A stretch of DNA of 55,198 nucleotides, from positions 1-55,198 of the forward strand of contig JAFXQI010000034.1 of the NCBI GenBank assembly GCA_017527155.1. The letters run 5' to 3'. Every line of letters starts with the position of its first letter. The stretch's first letter is position 1. A program made the position numbers and the translations under genes. This DNA is from Kiritimatiellia bacterium. GTDB lineage: Bacteria; Verrucomicrobiota; Kiritimatiellia; CAIQIC01; Lenti-01. The notes below the pieces were generated by a model, which worked only from the letters and a program-made list of their open reading frames with translations, had not been told where the DNA came from and ran no database searches. Below, piece by piece: positions 41,203 through 48,486 of this stretch.

Positions 41203-41420
41203 GCCCGCGAGAGTACGGCCCCCGGACGGAACGTGGCAAGGGGAAAATGGGAACCTTCCGCGGCGGCTGTGAGATTTCTTCCTCCCCCATCGGATATACG
41301 GATAGAGGCCGTGGAGCCACCGCCTCCGGGAAGCTCCCTCCCGCTCTCCTCCATGAACCGCCATCCATCCATTGCCCGAAGGCGCGTCCCGACCGCCGAC
41401 CGCATGCAAGCGCTTTTCGC

Positions 41421-41451
41421 TTGCTCCGGCGGCGGGGAGGCGTGCTACAGT
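41421..41451 (+). promoter_or_regulatory. Possible promoter of the structured element/KAP operon
   Basis: TTGCTC (41421-41426), 19 bases, TACAGT (41446-41451). The -10 TACAGTCG is identical to that of the better promoter at 49606, but the spacing is wide. A transcript from here would begin at the first stem of the structured element. Confidence 0.4.
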
Positions 41452-41452
41452 C

Positions 41453-41680
41453 GTGTCCATCGGGCCGCAAGGCCCGGTGACACTCGAATCCCGAACGTTT
41501 CTTCCGTCTGGAAACCGCCAAACTTTGGACTGGGAAGAAGCCTCGCGTCGGGCGTGCCCCCCGGGCGCGCCTTCGGCTTGCTTTCTTCCCACGGCGCTTG
41601 GCGGTGCCTCAGACGGAGAGCCCGGAAGCGCGCTTTTTCTTTCCCCGCGTTGCCGGCCCCTCCACCCTGGGAAGGAAAGA
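41453..41680 (+). ncRNA. Structured element copy 1 (candidate RNA with covarying helices)
   Basis: Stems that can be traced: GTGTC/GACAC (41453-41457 with 41479-41483) enclosing CGGGCC-GCAA-GGCCCG; P1 CCGTCTG/CAGACGG (41504-41510 with 41610-41616); P2 CGCCAA/TTGGCG (41516-41521 with 41598-41603); P3 TGGGAAGAA/TTCTTCCCA (41531-41539 with 41583-41591); and P4 GGCGTGCCC/GGGCGCGCC (41551-41559 with 41563-41571) with loop CCC. GAAAC between P1 and P2, GTGCC on the opposite side and CTTCGGC after P4 are shared with copy 2. There is no protein reading that explains this. The DNA strand meant is inferred from the downstream operon. Confidence 0.6.
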
Positions 41681-41819
41681 CAGTCCACCGCCACGCAACA
41701 AACCGCCAAAATCATTTTCCCCCTTCCCATGCCGGAGACGCTTCCGGGAGGAACCGCGGAACATTCCGCTTTCCACCGTGGCGCAAATGGGATAAGAAAG
41801 AGTTGCCAACGGATTGCGC

Positions 41820-42075
41820 GCCATACGGCCTGCAAGCCCGCGGCAGACAACTTCGATCCCTGTCTGACAAGGCTTCCCATGAAGAGAAACGGCCAAACGT
41901 CGCCCGCGAGGGCTACGGTTTCGCATTGGAAAAGAGCCTGTCGGAATGCGCCCCCTGGCGCGTCTTCGGCATGTTTCTTTTCCAAGGCGCTTGGCCGTGC
42001 CTTCTTCATGGAACATCCAACGGGCGCGCCTTTCCTTTTCCCCGCGCCCCGCGGATGTACCGACACCCGGGAAAA
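41820..42075 (+). ncRNA. Structured element copy 2 (candidate RNA with covarying helices)
   Basis: Same architecture with different bases in the stems: P1 CCATGAAGA/TCTTCATGG (41877-41885 with 42003-42011); P2 GGCCAA/TTGGCC (41891-41896 with 41991-41996); P3 TTGGAAAAGA/TCTTTTCCAA (41926-41935 with 41976-41985); and P4 ATGCGCC/GGCGCGT (41946-41952 with 41957-41963). It carries an extra hairpin CGTCGCCC-GCGA-GGGCTACG between P2 and P3, and a 3' hairpin ACATCC/GGATGT enclosing GCGCG/CGCGC around a CCTTTTCCC loop. It ends about 20 bases before the KAP gene start, so it would form its leader. Confidence 0.6.
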
Positions 42076-42095: not shown

Positions 42096-44048
42096 ATGAA
42101 ATCCAACGTCGTTGACCAACCCGCGAAAGCCGAAGGGGACCGCCTCAACATGAAGGCGTATGCCGCGGCCCTGACCGATTTCGTGAAAGAGGCCGAAGCC
42201 CCGCTGACGATTGCCCTGCAAGGTGAATGGGGGAGCGGCAAGACATCCCTGATGAACTCCCTCAAGGCCAGCCTGGTGGATGCGCCGGACGCCCCTTATC
42301 TCGGCATCTGGATCAACACCTGGCAGTACGCGCTGATGTCGAATCCCGAGGAGGCCATCCTCAACATCCTCATGGGCATCTCCGGGCAAGTCTCCGTCTT
42401 TGCCAAGACGTCTGCCGAAGACCGTAAGCGCTTCCTGGGCAAGCTCGCGACCTTCGCCGGAAGCGCCTGCTCCCAATTCTTCACCAAGCAGTTCGGGATC
42501 GATTTCAAGAAGAACATCGAGGAATGGAACGGCCCGGATGCCGAGACGGCCAAGTCCGGGGTGGAAAACCTCAAAAGCGAACTGGCCGCCGCCGTCAAGA
42601 AGGCACTGGAAAACGCGAAGGGCAAGCGCGGCTTCCTTTTCTTCATCGATGACCTCGACCGCATCGACCCGCCCGTGGCCGTGCAGATCCTCGAACTGCT
42701 GAAGAACGTTTTCGACCTGGAAAACTGCATCTTCATCCTCGCCATCGACTACGGCGTCGTGGTCAAGGGCCTCAAGCCCAAGTTCGGCGCCATGACGCCC
42801 GAGAACGAGCGCGAATTCCGCTCCTTCTTCGACAAGATCATCCAGCTGCCCTTCGCCATGCCCGTCAACAGCTACAAAATCGACGACTTCCTAATGGATT
42901 CCCTCACCGACATCGGATATCTCGACGACAAGGACAAGGATGACAAACTCCGCGAAGCCCTCACGTTCTACTCCCAGCATTCGGTTGGGAAAAATCCCCG
43001 CTCCCTCAAACGCCTCATCAACTACCTTTCCCTTATCCGCCTCCTTATCGAGCGCACCCCGACCCAAGAGGACGACGACGATTTCAAAACCTGGAAGGAC
43101 GTCCTCTTCGCCCTCGTGAGCCTCCAAGTCCAGTATCCGAAGGTCTATGAAGCACTCCTGGCTGACCCGGATTTCCCCGCGTGGAGCGAGGCATTTGAAC
43201 AGAAGTGGCGTCTCCCGGCTTTGAAGGAGGACGAAAAAGGCAAGCTGGAGAAGATGGAAGAATTCGACGAGCCGTGGGAGCAGATGCTCTTCCGTTTCTG
43301 CCGGCGCGACACCTTCCTCGAAGCCCGCGCAATCAACATCTCCCGGATTCTCAACCGCATCAAGGCCCGCATCGCCGACGCCAAGCAGCCGGTTGGCGAC
43401 ACCGTCGAATGGCTCTCGCGCCTCTCCGCCGTCACCAGCGTCAAGAGCGAGCCCGAACAAACGGCTGCCCCGGAGGAGTTCAACCGCTCGGAAACCCTCA
43501 AGGAGTTCCGTTGGCACACCCTTGGCTTGCGGCCGATTCCCGGCAAGAAAGGCTGGGAAACGCTTCTGTCCGACGGTTGCTACCTCTCCTCCTGGCAGGC
43601 ACGGGTGCAGACGAATCTCCTGTGCGAACTCTGGGCCGGAAAGAAGACCTACAACGACAAGGCCGATGACGGATTCCTGACCGAACCCCACTTCCACGTC
43701 TGCCATGACGGGAAGTCGTTCCAACTGAAAATCGGGGGCGAATTCTGGGGCAACTGGCCAAAGGAGAAGTATCGGGGAATCGACTTCTCGTCCGAGTCGA
43801 TCCAGGCCGATCTCGCGGCGGCGGTAAACGCCTTCTGCGCCGCCTGGGCGCCTCTGGGCATCACCCCGGCCGTTGACAAGAACATCGGCCACTGGAAAGA
43901 AGACATTTGGTACCACGCATCAATCCCCTTCAAGAATCTCGACGACCTCGTTTCGGACGATTTCTCCCGAAAACTCCGCACTTGCCTCTCCGCCGTGGCA
44001 GCCGCCTTCGCCTCGCTGTTGAAGTACCGAATCCCCGTGGATTCGTGA
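42096..44048 (+). CDS. KAP-family P-loop NTPase
   Basis: A 650-residue KAP NTPase, a class of STAND/AAA-like ATPases common in anti-phage systems and often membrane-associated. Walker A is GEWGSGKTS (43-51), INTWQYAL (73-80) is the KAP-specific strand, and Walker B is FLFFIDDLDRI (180-190). NPRSLKRLINYLSLIRLLIE is the C-terminal helical lid with sensor Arg. The last ~180 residues (LGLRPIPGKKGWETLL to the end) form an additional domain I do not recognise. AAGGAAACGCGC precedes ATG 42096. It is the first gene of a six-gene operon, with the next start 28 bases downstream. Folded element copy 2 lies immediately upstream. Confidence 0.88.
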   Translation: MKSNVVDQPAKAEGDRLNMKAYAAALTDFVKEAEAPLTIALQGEWGSGKTSLMNSLKASLVDAPDAPYLGIWINTWQYALMSNPEEAILNILMGISGQVSVFAKTSAEDRKRFLGKLATFAGSACSQFFTKQFGIDFKKNIEEWNGPDAETAKSGVENLKSELAAAVKKALENAKGKRGFLFFIDDLDRIDPPVAVQILELLKNVFDLENCIFILAIDYGVVVKGLKPKFGAMTPENEREFRSFFDKIIQLPFAMPVNSYKIDDFLMDSLTDIGYLDDKDKDDKLREALTFYSQHSVGKNPRSLKRLINYLSLIRLLIERTPTQEDDDDFKTWKDVLFALVSLQVQYPKVYEALLADPDFPAWSEAFEQKWRLPALKEDEKGKLEKMEEFDEPWEQMLFRFCRRDTFLEARAINISRILNRIKARIADAKQPVGDTVEWLSRLSAVTSVKSEPEQTAAPEEFNRSETLKEFRWHTLGLRPIPGKKGWETLLSDGCYLSSWQARVQTNLLCELWAGKKTYNDKADDGFLTEPHFHVCHDGKSFQLKIGGEFWGNWPKEKYRGIDFSSESIQADLAAAVNAFCAAWAPLGITPAVDKNIGHWKEDIWYHASIPFKNLDDLVSDDFSRKLRTCLSAVAAAFASLLKYRIPVDS

Positions 44049-44076
44049 CCATCAAGGAAAGAAAGGAAAACAACAA

Positions 44077-46551
44077 ATGTTCAAAACAATGCACAACACG
44101 ATATCGTTCACATTGAGCGACATTGCAGAATGGGCGCAAGGAAAGGGCTTGGTGGAACTTCCCGCATTCCAGCGCGGGCTGGTGTGGAACGCGGCCCAAA
44201 TCGAGGTGCTGTGGGATTCGCTGATGCGCAACATTCCCATCGGCACTTTCTCTCTCCTGCCGATGCGCGGGAACGAGCGCTATTCGAAGCAAAGGGCAAC
44301 AGATGGGGGCAAGGTGGACGGGGAGCGGTATTTCCTGCTGGATGGTCAACAAAGGGCCAACGCGATTTCCCTGGCGTTCCAAGCGTTCCCGGAAGTCGGG
44401 GATACGGAGTCCTCCATTCTCTGGGTTGACCTTTTGCCCGCGACCCAGCGGTCCAATCGGAAAACCTTTTTCTACGCAACGACGCCTGCTCGTCCGTGGG
44501 GTTACCGGATCGACGATGCAAACGGAGAAAACCGTTCGGGGAACGTCCCCGTGGCGCAATGGAGGGCGGCACTGGAGGAAATCGAGTGGCCCGAGGAAGC
44601 CGGCACAAAACCCTCTCCGGCACAACTCTGGCCGGTTTGTGCGCGGTTCCCGGTCCCCGTGGCGGCATTACGCAAGCACGGGAACCTCCGCGATGCGGTG
44701 TCGGATGGCGAGAAAAACGCCCCCTGGGCGAAGCATCTCTTGTGGATGGCTCAAACTGTTTCGATGGATGAACTGGACGTCACCGCCAAGGAGCTGGCTG
44801 AGCGGTTGGAGAGCGTGATCAAGAACACATGCGTCACGGCGACCGTCGCGCCAGACGGTCTGTCCACCGACCGAGGGGACGGCGAGAATTCGGAAATCGC
44901 CCTCTATTTCACCCGCCTCAACCGGGGCGGCACGACGCCTTCGCGGGAGGATCTGGACTATTCCATCCTGAAGAGCATCCTGCCGGAACTCCACCAGATC
45001 GACGAATGCGCGAAGGGGCGGATGCATCCGGCACGGCTCGCGAACCTCGCGATGCTTTCGTTCCTCTCCAACGGGGAAAAGGACGGCTGGAAACGCACAC
45101 TGTCGCAACACGACATCTTCGGCCTCAAGGACAAGGCGGACTTCGCCCGTTTCGTCGCGGAGGGACTCGCTCGGGACGTGGACACCGTCGATGCCTGGCT
45201 GCTGGGAACAGGCAATGGCATGGATTACGGCCTGCCGCCATATCTCAGAACACGACTGGCGCGTTCGCAACCGAACCTTTATCGCTTCCTCTTGATGCTG
45301 GCCGCACGGATGCGGGCGAAAGGCACAACCGGCAGAGAGGGATTTGCCAAGACACTGGTGGCTTTCTGCACGGCGCTGGCGTGGTTCGGCAAAGATGGCG
45401 GAATGGACTTTGCGCCGTTGGCGGGATGCCTTGGCGAACTCGCGTCCAATGCGGGGGACGTTGCCGCGGCACGCAAGATTCTGGGCGGATGGATGGCCGC
45501 ACAGATGGAAAACGGAGTGCTGCTCGTTCCCCCGCCGCCGTCCTATTTCGAAGGCATTGAAAGGGCAACGGAGAGCGGAGAGATGGATGCCATCAAGAAG
45601 GCATGGTCGGACCCTTCGCATGTGACGGGTGCAAACGCCATCTGGAACTGGTACGACAAAGCTGAGGCGGGGCGCGGACTTGTGCTCTACGCATGCCGTA
45701 AATACCTCTCCAAGACCTTCGGAAGTTACGACCCGGCGACCGCCGTCTGGAACGAAGATGCACGTCCTTGGGACTACGACCACATCGTTCCGCAGTCATG
45801 GCTGAAGGGAACCTATCACGGCGATTGGCATGAACTGGTCGCGGAATTGCTGAACTCCATCGGAAACATCGCCCCGATCCCCTTCGGCGCAAACCGTTCC
45901 AAGAACAACGTCCCACCCGGAGAAGTCGCACTCTACGCCGATGCGGGAAAGGCAAAGGATCTGTTTGTCGATTTCGGATTCGGCGGACGGACGCCTCGCT
46001 TCGTACACGAGTATGTACTCCCGGAGTGCGACAAGGAGGTCGCCTTCGACTTCGCCCGCGTGATCGCGCACCGCCTGGACGTACTTTACCGGGAGTGGTG
46101 GAACACGCTCGATATCGGTTCGTTGCTCGCGGAATGCGTTCCCGTGCGGCGGAAGAAGGACATCGAAGCGCTCGCCGAAGAATTGCGGCGGCGTTTCCCC
46201 TCTGTGGCCAAGGTCGTCCGGATTGTGTACAACGCAAAGGACGGAACCCAGAGGGATGTGGCGGCTCCGTGGGATTGGGCGCGGCCCTGGGTTTCTTGTG
46301 GCATCGCGGGGTGGTGGATTCCAAAAGGATCGGACAAGCGCATCCGCTGCTTCCTCGCTCGGACTTTCCAAGAGGGATGCTTCGAGATGGGACTTCGCCG
46401 TCACCCCAATGAAAGCACGCTTGATGGAACAGACGCGTGGTGGATTGAGCGTCAGTTCCACAACAACGGCGACTTCCTTGACTATGCCGCCGTGTTGCTC
46501 AGGACCACTGTATCGCCAGATGCAACGGGCGTTTTTGTGCCAGAGGTGTAA
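44077..46551 (+). CDS. DUF262 protein with C-terminal HNH nuclease domain (GmrSD-like)
   Basis: An 824-residue protein. The DUF262 N-terminus has LVELPAFQRGLVWNAAQIEVL and the NTP motif LLDGQQRANAI (about 88-98), then YFTRLNRGGTTPSREDLDYS, the 'N-x-G-T' segment. A nuclease-type HNH lies at about 564-600: WDYDHIVPQSWL, NSIGNIAPIPFGANRSKNN. A further ~180 residues with many Trp follow. It is larger than the GmrSD-like protein at 13953 and not closely similar to it, and its GC is normal for the window. AAGGAAAG precedes the ATG. Probably a DNA-cleaving effector controlled by the KAP ATPase (inference from operon position). Confidence 0.87.
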   Translation: MFKTMHNTISFTLSDIAEWAQGKGLVELPAFQRGLVWNAAQIEVLWDSLMRNIPIGTFSLLPMRGNERYSKQRATDGGKVDGERYFLLDGQQRANAISLAFQAFPEVGDTESSILWVDLLPATQRSNRKTFFYATTPARPWGYRIDDANGENRSGNVPVAQWRAALEEIEWPEEAGTKPSPAQLWPVCARFPVPVAALRKHGNLRDAVSDGEKNAPWAKHLLWMAQTVSMDELDVTAKELAERLESVIKNTCVTATVAPDGLSTDRGDGENSEIALYFTRLNRGGTTPSREDLDYSILKSILPELHQIDECAKGRMHPARLANLAMLSFLSNGEKDGWKRTLSQHDIFGLKDKADFARFVAEGLARDVDTVDAWLLGTGNGMDYGLPPYLRTRLARSQPNLYRFLLMLAARMRAKGTTGREGFAKTLVAFCTALAWFGKDGGMDFAPLAGCLGELASNAGDVAAARKILGGWMAAQMENGVLLVPPPPSYFEGIERATESGEMDAIKKAWSDPSHVTGANAIWNWYDKAEAGRGLVLYACRKYLSKTFGSYDPATAVWNEDARPWDYDHIVPQSWLKGTYHGDWHELVAELLNSIGNIAPIPFGANRSKNNVPPGEVALYADAGKAKDLFVDFGFGGRTPRFVHEYVLPECDKEVAFDFARVIAHRLDVLYREWWNTLDIGSLLAECVPVRRKKDIEALAEELRRRFPSVAKVVRIVYNAKDGTQRDVAAPWDWARPWVSCGIAGWWIPKGSDKRIRCFLARTFQEGCFEMGLRRHPNESTLDGTDAWWIERQFHNNGDFLDYAAVLLRTTVSPDATGVFVPEV

Positions 46552-46569
46552 TCCCGAAAGAAGCGAATC

Positions 46570-47088
46570 ATGGCGGGCAGGAGTAGAAAAGAAGAGCAAG
46601 AGCGGATCCTTCGGGAGAAACGGGCCGCAGCTGAAGTAGGACAGCTGGGCGGCATGGCCGTCGCGACAGTCATCATGGGCCTCGTTTACGGCCTTTTCTT
46701 CAGCAAAAGCAAGTTCGTCCGAATCTTGACCTTGAGTGTCCTGGTGGTGGGTATCTGGTGGTTTTTCGGCGATGCCATTTCCGCAAAGATACACCTTCCC
46801 CCGGAATGGGGCCATAAGGTCTCAGTTTTCCTTTCTGGCACACGAGACTTTTGCGCTAAAGCGAACAAGAACATCCATGCATCAACTGGCCCCCTCGCGG
46901 AGGACGGTAGGGAGGGCTCTGATGCGCTTGCCGTTGACGAAGCGGATACGGAAGACGTTGCTACCGGGAAGCGTCCACAGTCTTCCATCGCTCAGGCACC
47001 GGAAATCCAACCGCTGGATGAGTCTCTGTCCCCGTCACAGGAAAAAGAACAGTCAAGAGACGGGTGGTCCGCCCCATGCGTCTGGTGA
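46570..47088 (+). CDS. Small two-helix membrane protein of the KAP operon
   Basis: A 172-residue protein not recognised. A charged N-terminus (MAGRSRKEEQERILREKRAAAE) precedes two membrane helices (GGMAVATVIMGLVYGLFF and FVRILTLSVLVVGIWWFFG), then a long polar, probably disordered tail rich in Glu, Asp and Ser ending SAPCVW. It lies 18 bases after the DUF262 gene. With two other small membrane proteins in the operon it suggests a membrane-linked complex. Confidence 0.75.
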   Translation: MAGRSRKEEQERILREKRAAAEVGQLGGMAVATVIMGLVYGLFFSKSKFVRILTLSVLVVGIWWFFGDAISAKIHLPPEWGHKVSVFLSGTRDFCAKANKNIHASTGPLAEDGREGSDALAVDEADTEDVATGKRPQSSIAQAPEIQPLDESLSPSQEKEQSRDGWSAPCVW

Positions 47089-47115
47089 AAAACAACACAA
47101 CAGGAGAACAACAAA

Positions 47116-47547
47116 ATGGCAAAAGACAATGAATGGCAGGATGCCCTCAAGGCAATACGGGTACTCGTGGCCTTGGTGGGGTTTGTGTTCCTGCTTCTCA
47201 AATTCCTGCTTTTCAGCAAGAGCAACGCGGGTGCAATCCTGTCGTTCCTTGTGCTGGGGTTGGGGCTTTGGGCGGTGCGCGAAGTGGCACCCCCAGAAAT
47301 CCATGTCTGCGATGTATGCGGGCTAGAATACACGTATACGGACTTGGCTAGGCATCCTTTGCCCACATACTGCCCGGTGTCGCCATCACACAAACATCAT
47401 GGAAAGGCCCTTCCGTGCTTCGACTTCCGTCACGGTCTGAATCAGGTTCGCACTTGGATGAAGACAGACGCCGAAAGCTTGATGAAGGCATTCGAGGAAG
47501 AGGAGGAGGAAGGGAACGCCACTGGGGCCAACAGAAACGACGGCTGA
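47116..47547 (+). CDS. Small membrane protein with CxxC motif of the KAP operon
   Basis: A 143-residue protein. It has two close membrane helices (AIRVLVALVGFVFLLLKFLL and AGAILSFLVLGLGLWAV), then HVCDVCGLEYTYTDLARHPL and TYCPVSPSHKHHGKAL. The C-x2-C...C-P-x-x-P...GK pattern is a variant of the repeat found three times in the last gene of the operon. The C-terminus is acidic (EEEEEEGN). AGGAG ribosome binding site. No family recognised. Confidence 0.75.
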   Translation: MAKDNEWQDALKAIRVLVALVGFVFLLLKFLLFSKSNAGAILSFLVLGLGLWAVREVAPPEIHVCDVCGLEYTYTDLARHPLPTYCPVSPSHKHHGKALPCFDFRHGLNQVRTWMKTDAESLMKAFEEEEEEGNATGANRNDG

Positions 47548-47560
47548 AAGGAGAAACACC

Positions 47561-48112
47561 ATGTCCAACGAAATCAGAAAAATCGCATTGAATCCGCAAC
47601 GGGCCCGCTACATGGTCGCCCACTGGGACGATGATCCCATGTCAGATGATGACTCCATTCCCGTGCAATTTGATGTCTCCAACATCCGCATCAAAATCGG
47701 GGAGCTGGCCAAGGAGCGCCCGGATTTCCGTGAAGGGCTGGCCCAACTCCATCAAGCCGTCGCGACGAAGGAATTCTGGGAACAACTGGCGGAAAATATG
47801 GAAGGGACGCAGTTCAGCGCATGTGGCCTGTCCTTCAAGAAATTCACATACTTCAGCGCATTGAAACCCCTTTGGGCACTGGGGGAGGACGTGGCGGGGG
47901 AGGAGGAAAGAGGCGGTGACAAGGGAAGAGCGAAGAGAAAACGGAAAGGAGCGGGGTGCCTGGGATTCCTCTTCCGAGGGCTGCTTGTGGCCTGGCTTGT
48001 CTGGTATGCCTTCAAACTCTGGGGACCACGGCCTGGTGACCTCTCTGCCCCCGCAACCGAACAGCAAACGCTGGACAACAATCTGGAAACACAAACAGGA
48101 GACAAACCATGA
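47561..48112 (+). CDS. Single-helix membrane protein of the KAP operon
   Basis: A 183-residue protein. A soluble N-terminal ~120 residues (PVQFDVSNIRIKIGELAKER, FREGLAQLHQAVATKEFWEQL) is followed by a very basic stretch (KGRAKRKRKGAG) and one membrane helix (CLGFLFRGLLVAWLVWYAF) near the C-terminus, so the bulk should lie in the cytoplasm. GAAAGGAGA precedes the ATG. Its TGA overlaps the next ATG (ATGA). Not recognised. Confidence 0.75.
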   Translation: MSNEIRKIALNPQRARYMVAHWDDDPMSDDDSIPVQFDVSNIRIKIGELAKERPDFREGLAQLHQAVATKEFWEQLAENMEGTQFSACGLSFKKFTYFSALKPLWALGEDVAGEEERGGDKGRAKRKRKGAGCLGFLFRGLLVAWLVWYAFKLWGPRPGDLSAPATEQQTLDNNLETQTGDKP

Positions 48113-48486
48113 GCGAATACTGCAAATACTGTGGAACATCGGCGAGGGACGCCCGTTCGTTGCTGGCTGGCAACTGCCCCAAACACCCTGCCGGGGCCTA
48201 CAAGGGAAAACATGCCTTGTATGAAGGCGGCGAGCGCGCCGAATACATCTGCGTGTATTGCGGCACCCGAAACCGCTCCTTGAGTTCATTGTTGTCCGGC
48301 AGTTGCCCCAAGCATCCCGATGGCAGTTACAAAGGCAAGCACTCCGCCTACGACGGGCGTGAATCAGGCCCTTACGAGTGCAAGTACTGTGGACAATCCT
48401 ATCGGGAAATATCGAGCATGGTTTCCAGTTCTTGCCCGAAACATCCCGACGGCAACTACAAGGGCCGCCACAGCCCTGCGCGGTAG
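48109..48486 (+). CDS. Triple zinc-ribbon repeat protein
   Basis: A 125-residue protein consisting almost wholly of three ~43-residue repeats: CKYCGTSARDARSLLAGNCP, CVYCGTRNRSLSSLLSGSCP and CKYCGQSYREISSMVSSSCP, each continuing KHPxGxYKGKH. Every unit offers C-x2-C, a later C and one or two His (for example C5, C8, C23, H26), so three zinc sites are expected. This resembles the short 'CxxCG...CPxxPxGKH' ribbons seen singly in many gut bacterial proteins. Zinc ribbons of this kind bind nucleic acid or proteins; the role here is unknown. It is the last gene of the operon and overlaps the previous gene by four bases. Confidence 0.8.
   Translation: MSEYCKYCGTSARDARSLLAGNCPKHPAGAYKGKHALYEGGERAEYICVYCGTRNRSLSSLLSGSCPKHPDGSYKGKHSAYDGRESGPYECKYCGQSYREISSMVSSSCPKHPDGNYKGRHSPAR

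Follow-up and report, generated by a model that had tools for sequence, protein, structure and literature searches.

Tandem folds in the leader of a KAP-GmrSD operon belong to a new RNA family and are probable transcription attenuators

The leader of a KAP operon in a Kiritimatiellia bacterium carries two tandem folds that belong to a new RNA family, which occurs in many gut-type bacteria of the Bacteroidota, the Verrucomicrobiota and their relatives. Both lie in a 55,198-nt stretch of contig JAFXQI010000034.1 (GCA_017527155.1), hereafter the window. Family membership, covariation, position in cis and alternative base pairings, all of them computational observations, suggest that each copy is a transcription attenuator in which a terminator competes with an antiterminator, a reading to which we assign, from sequence, a probability of about 0.8.

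The two copies are paralogous folds on the + strand and have four helices in common, P1 (9 bp), P2 (8 bp), P3 and P4. The core of copy 1 spans 41502-41618 (P1, 41502-41510/41610-41618; P2, 41514-41521/41598-41605; P3, 41531-41539/41583-41591; P4, 41547-41559/41563-41577), with GGCGC at 41593-41597. It scores 106.4 bits (cmsearch) with a covariance model of the window's two copies (R1) and 96.8 bits with a model of 91 sequences (R2), scores that are not independent since both models were built from copy 1. The core of copy 2 spans 41877-42011 (R1, 98.5 bits; R2, 91.0 bits). Minimum free energies compared with shuffled sequences give z-scores of -4.6 and -7.6 for copies 1 and 2, respectively. 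A preliminary description of the window had reported tandem folds with compensatory changes, outlined by P1-P4, the motifs GAAAC, GTGCC and CTTCGGC, a five-base bulge and a CCC apical loop, and all of these are present in the copies, the bulge as GGCGC and the apical loop as a C-rich one. P2 reads AC[C/G]GCCAA/TTGGC[G/C]GT in the two copies, and copy 2 has, in addition to that outline, a hairpin GCCC-GCGA-GGGC between P2 and P3 (J2/3).

Compensatory change is already visible in an alignment (A5) of the window's two copies with copy 2 from a genome of the same genus (G001). This alignment was edited by hand: the J2/3 hairpin was taken out of copy 2, together with a few bulged bases. In 16 of 39 pairs, both partners have changed and still pair (seven in P1, one in P2, three in P3 and five in P4), compared with a mean of 5.2 in shuffles and 1-4 with slid partners; the share of cells that pair is 99.1%. 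In G001, the stretch that holds copy 1 and its flanks (about 41395-41656, ~260 nt) is 100% identical, and the surroundings are ~93.5% identical. A DNA search of the window's own genome with copy 2 returned no match except copy 2 itself. As a separate observation, G001 contains ~1.7 kb of extra sequence (C102, 8769-10484, against 41252-41269 in the window) between the upstream neighbor and the RNA leader.

The covariance model built from the two copies recovered homologs with strong covariation in related genomes, and the selection on an RNA fold that had been proposed from the window is borne out by them on a massive scale. An alignment of 91 sequences shows double changes at 37 of 39 pairs and pairing in 93.5% of cells; double-changed cells number 955 compared with 290 in shuffles, and the covariation score is 0.683 compared with 0.08-0.10 for slid partners. 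These pair counts favor the structure of R1 because the alignment (A7) was fitted to it, but the margin is nonetheless large. The preliminary description had left the choice between an RNA and a single-stranded DNA fold. G-U pairs exceed A-C mismatches on the + strand (277 vs. 59), which argues for RNA of the + strand as the acting molecule and against single-stranded DNA. The near-invariant letters are AAA, GGC/GCC and the ends of P2, several of which are explained by the alternative pairing described below and part of which were imposed by the search pattern.

Within the window's class, R1 alone, with no sequence pattern, finds about 80 places, spread over 57 of 288 genomes. R2 finds members in over a quarter of the genomes sampled from the window's phylum (54 of 195) and in about a sixth of the sampled Bacteroidia (41 of 247), whereas none of 143 Gammaproteobacteria has a member and none was found by R2 in the named Thalassospira, Bradyrhizobium, Azoarcus, Mycolicibacterium, Herpetosiphon, Phormidesmis and Legionella genomes. 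Judged by identical match coordinates, the phylum sample includes Victivallis vadensis, so the window's phylum is presumably the Verrucomicrobiota of GTDB. Members outside the class were first gathered with a DNA pattern based on P2 and adjoining sequence (GAAA...CCAA, TTGG..GTGCC) and then scored with R1; they include Prevotella, other Bacteroidales, Bacteroides faecalis, Alistipes, Chitinophaga, Mucilaginibacter, Ignavibacteria, Kapaibacteria, Victivallis vadensis and a planctomycete, and the conservation of the P2 and GTGCC letters in these named members is partly imposed since the collecting pattern contained them. Cultured carriers are V. vadensis, B. faecalis and Chitinophaga arvensicola. 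Another pattern, TTCGGC..GGCGCTTGG, was tried in 56 relatives and gave chance-like matches beyond the copies in the window's genome (G000) and G001; a covariance model is thus needed to find the family.

Genomes carry one to seven divergent copies. The window's own genome has five, and the three outside the window precede a 1517-aa protein with papain and lectin domains, a 909-aa lipoprotein-like protein and a 411-aa secreted-looking protein. Tandem pairs are also found in Bacteroidia, at L285 (5802-6201, - strand) and L286 (2396-2893, + strand), the latter consisting of two very similar copies 369 nt apart upstream of a 1303-aa reading frame. Two viral contigs (L250 and L252) carry members as well; hence, the leader may also serve, or travel with, phages or prophages.

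Despite its presence in the sampled Bacteroidia and in the window's phylum at the rates given above, the family is missing from Rfam 15. The window has no match at the gathering threshold, the two copies match nothing plausible at E ≤ 10 and 26 homologous loci match nothing plausible at E ≤ 0.5, in keeping with the earlier statement that no such family had been described. No RNA with this outline was found in the literature, including the parts covered of three discovery surveys of 50 genomes (PMC11109978), 26 genomes (PMC8632094) and 104 motifs (PMC2864571). Some motifs of the last survey (Bacteroides-2, GUCCY-hairpin and Rhodopirellula-1) have no Rfam entry and lie outside this comparison; the family is new relative to Rfam 15 and the texts covered.

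P1-P4 are real, yet the four-helix outline is probably not the sole state, as a predicted terminator constitutes an alternative fold. Complementarity links strand A0, the last bases before P1, to strand A, the 5' strand of P3/P4. It likewise links strand T, the tail that follows P1 and leads into a U-tract, to strand B, the 3' strand of P3/P4. Outside the covariance models, the duplex energy of each sequence's own strands was compared with that obtained with strands of other sequences. Cognate specificity is confined to A:B, B:T and A0:A (p from 1e-11 to 1e-29). The B:T duplex reaches -30 kcal/mol for cognate and about -20 kcal/mol for non-cognate strands (p = 1e-27 and 1e-23 in two groups), and A0:A is likewise stronger when cognate (p = 1e-11 and 3e-15 in two groups), whereas the control combinations A0:T, A0:B and A:T show no cognate effect in this test. 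The family thus has an antiterminator that competes on the same strand, since A:B and B:T are both cognate-specific and the A:B helices covary.

Folded alone, the 3' half brings the tail and B together by at least 8 pairs (median 18 pairs) in 118 of 120 leaders, and a U-rich stretch (at least 5 T in 8) follows it in 114 of 120. By sequence, the family therefore has a GC-rich hairpin and a U-run, as in an intrinsic terminator, before the gene. In the window's copies, the tail:B hairpin is capped by a further helix, P5 (GGCGC/GTGCC around the 3' strand of P2), or a variant of it. The P5 partners 286-304 covary, with 12 double changes, even though they are mutually unpaired in P1-P4, and the triple C14/C291/G302 changes to U/U/A in nine sequences.

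The functional unit is hence larger than the core and includes ~15 nt upstream as well as the tail and U-run downstream. All four strands and the U-run are present in both copies of the window. In copy 1, strand A0 (41488-41504) complements the 5' strand of P3 and its duplex with A has an energy of -15.0 kcal/mol; the predicted terminator (41563-41638) comprises the 3' strand of P4/P3, the tail (41619-41635), the P5 cap and five T (41634-41638), and this 3' half folds at -37.5 kcal/mol. In copy 2, strand A0 (41863-41879) pairs weakly with A (-10.6 kcal/mol), and the predicted terminator (41957-42039) comprises the 3' strand of P4/P3 and the tail (42013-42030), followed by T3CCT4, with the 3' half folding at -36.7 kcal/mol. 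The better U-run is that of copy 1, and the terminator of copy 2 should be the weaker one because its U-run is interrupted.

According to the attenuator reading, the four strands in the order A0-A-B-T would form two mutually exclusive folds. In the ON state, A:B (P3/P4) would stack on P2 and P1, leaving T free, and RNA polymerase would read into the gene. In the OFF state, A0:A and B:T would form, the latter as a long hairpin with the P5 cap that together with the U-run would act as an intrinsic terminator. The small conserved core at P1/P2 (AAA, GGC...GCC) might be the site where a signal in trans, such as a metabolite or an RNA-binding protein, biases the choice. Termination itself, the state favored by the signal and the nature of the signal are the parts of this scheme that we infer. 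The computed stability of the P1-P4 state exceeds that of the two half folds together by ~14 kcal/mol; hence, termination would need co-transcriptional folding and kinetics or a bound factor. A scan for promoters of the sigma-70 type found none. The two alternative states are explicit enough for a direct test.

The RNA family is a cis leader. Among 98 leaders with a called downstream frame, 85 have a start codon on the same strand within 100 nt after the core (median 63.5 nt). KAP orthologs (at least 57% identity) are present eight times in 288 genomes, and in all eight cases the RNA lies directly upstream. This position bears on the possibility of a stand-alone small RNA acting in trans, 6S-like or antisense, that has its own terminator and lies upstream of genes by chance. 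The compact shape and terminator-like 3' end would suit such an RNA, as would the fact that copy 1 is followed by copy 2 and not by a gene. However, a small RNA gene would be independent of the gene downstream, which is at odds with the distances to start codons and the retention by the KAP orthologs, and it would need no alternative pairing of its terminator strand with an antiterminator. We consider it unlikely.

The genes behind the RNA are diverse. Defence-type genes include the KAP NTPase, GmrSD (as second gene), an EcoRI methylase, a type IIG enzyme, a DrmD-like helicase (DISARM-like), a Z1/MzaC protein and PD-(D/E)XK and FRG proteins, while surface-type proteins include those with BspA leucine-rich repeats and TSP3 repeats. 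According to a crude hydrophobicity rule, 48 of 91 first proteins have a signal-peptide-like start compared with 25 of 156 control genes of the same loci (p = 3e-9). The leader is thus a general one, found in several phyla before both defence and surface genes, whose diversity points to no ligand. An element specific to KAP was ruled out by the unrelated genes downstream of other copies. A recurring secreted family with a common N-terminal region, several members of which have TSP3-like repeats, was also seen directly behind the RNA (L065, L079, L084, L088, L093, L104, L108, L110, L111, L317 and L325).

A complex conserved RNA that precedes long operons and surface-protein genes of great length also brings to mind processive antitermination, as by put of HK022 or EAR of Bacillales, in which a modified RNA polymerase passes later terminators in accessory and often long operons. 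In the family described here, however, the first terminator consists of strands of the element and cannot coexist with it, which fits an attenuator, and many of the controlled genes are short and single. Moreover, the taxa differ from those of put and EAR and there is no match to them in sequence or structure in Rfam. A put/EAR-like function appears improbable to us.

The pairing logic itself (1:2/3:4 vs. 2:3), with a terminator before the gene, is identical to the one known from the trp attenuator, where the fold depends on a ribosome that stalls in a short frame. No short translated frame over strand 1 was seen in upstream flanks inspected by eye, and those flanks that show a promoter-like sequence leave, by eye, little room for one upstream of A0. 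Furthermore, P1 evolves through compensatory change and not as codons, and a conserved P1/P2 core lies between the strands, unlike in the trp attenuator. From the flanks as inspected by eye, a leader-peptide mechanism seems very unlikely; the trp-type logic without a visible leader peptide suggests that the attenuator is driven by some other factor.

Hairpins acting as mobile or recombining DNA (REP/RAYT repeats, IS ends or integron attC sites) might account for tandem copies and for the spread across unrelated accessory genes and phyla, but this is hardly tenable given the few divergent copies per genome (REP/RAYT repeats being numerous, near-identical and often in inverted pairs), the fixed orientation and distance to the start codon, the strand bias, the U-run after the tail, the position before genes (attC sites being downstream of cassettes) and the absence, by eye, of the attC motifs RYYYAAC/GTTRRRY from the two copies.

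The attenuator reading places the family closest to transcription-attenuating riboswitches and orphan candidates, with which it shares the 5' leader position, an exclusive terminator and antiterminator, in some cases a tandem arrangement and, as far as the letters were not imposed by the search pattern or explained by alternative pairing, a core that seems conserved. It differs from them in that no Rfam family matches, that its tail terminator carries a further conserved hairpin (P5) as a cap and that the targets are defence and surface genes and not one pathway. RNA-level regulation of most defence systems is poorly known, and described riboregulators are few in Bacteroidota and Verrucomicrobiota. 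We tentatively suggest, as a possibility below even odds, a new class of riboswitch or protein-sensing RNA in the superphyla of the Bacteroidota and Verrucomicrobiota, in which one signal would control a regulon of defence and surface genes. If so, the RNA might be an alarm or a surface-remodeling switch with tandem copies for tight control, and the trigger, once found, would tell which signal joins phage defence to the expression of surface proteins.

In the window, the two leaders precede a KAP operon, as had been proposed; its first gene (42096-44048, + strand) starts 84 nt past copy 2 and encodes a KAP P-loop NTPase of 650 aa (Pfam PF07693, E = 2.5e-36) with PADLOC matches to PDC-S20, PifA and QatA. 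The second gene (44077-46551, + strand) encodes a GmrSD-type (DUF262) nuclease of 824 aa (GmrSD_N, E = 2e-16; GmrSD_C, E = 1.7e-5; Pfam). Two complete attenuators in series might keep the KAP-GmrSD operon more tightly OFF until the signal arrives, and would plausibly tighten its control; tandem riboswitches are described in a review as giving more complex gene control (PMC9481103).

The controlled operon resembles KAP defence-type systems (PDC-S20, QatA, PifA) in its KAP NTPase, joined by a GmrSD nuclease, whereas most copies of the RNA have no link to KAP. To our knowledge, the RNA leader is part of no known KAP system. Further downstream, a 125-aa protein (48109-48486, + strand) with three zinc-finger-like CxxCG...CPKHPxG repeats recurs in the module, and relatives of it lie behind KAP in G001, L064, L275, L278 and L279. 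The KAP module (42096-48486 in the window; L033, L064, L275, L278, L279 and L280) looks like a cassette system, with the KAP NTPase first, a recurring protein of 117-125 aa with three zinc-finger-like repeats downstream, and variable genes that separate or flank the two. The variable genes are GmrSD in the window, other genes in G001, whose operon diverges from that of the window at about 43484 to 48073, and a GmrSD-like protein of 465 aa in L280.
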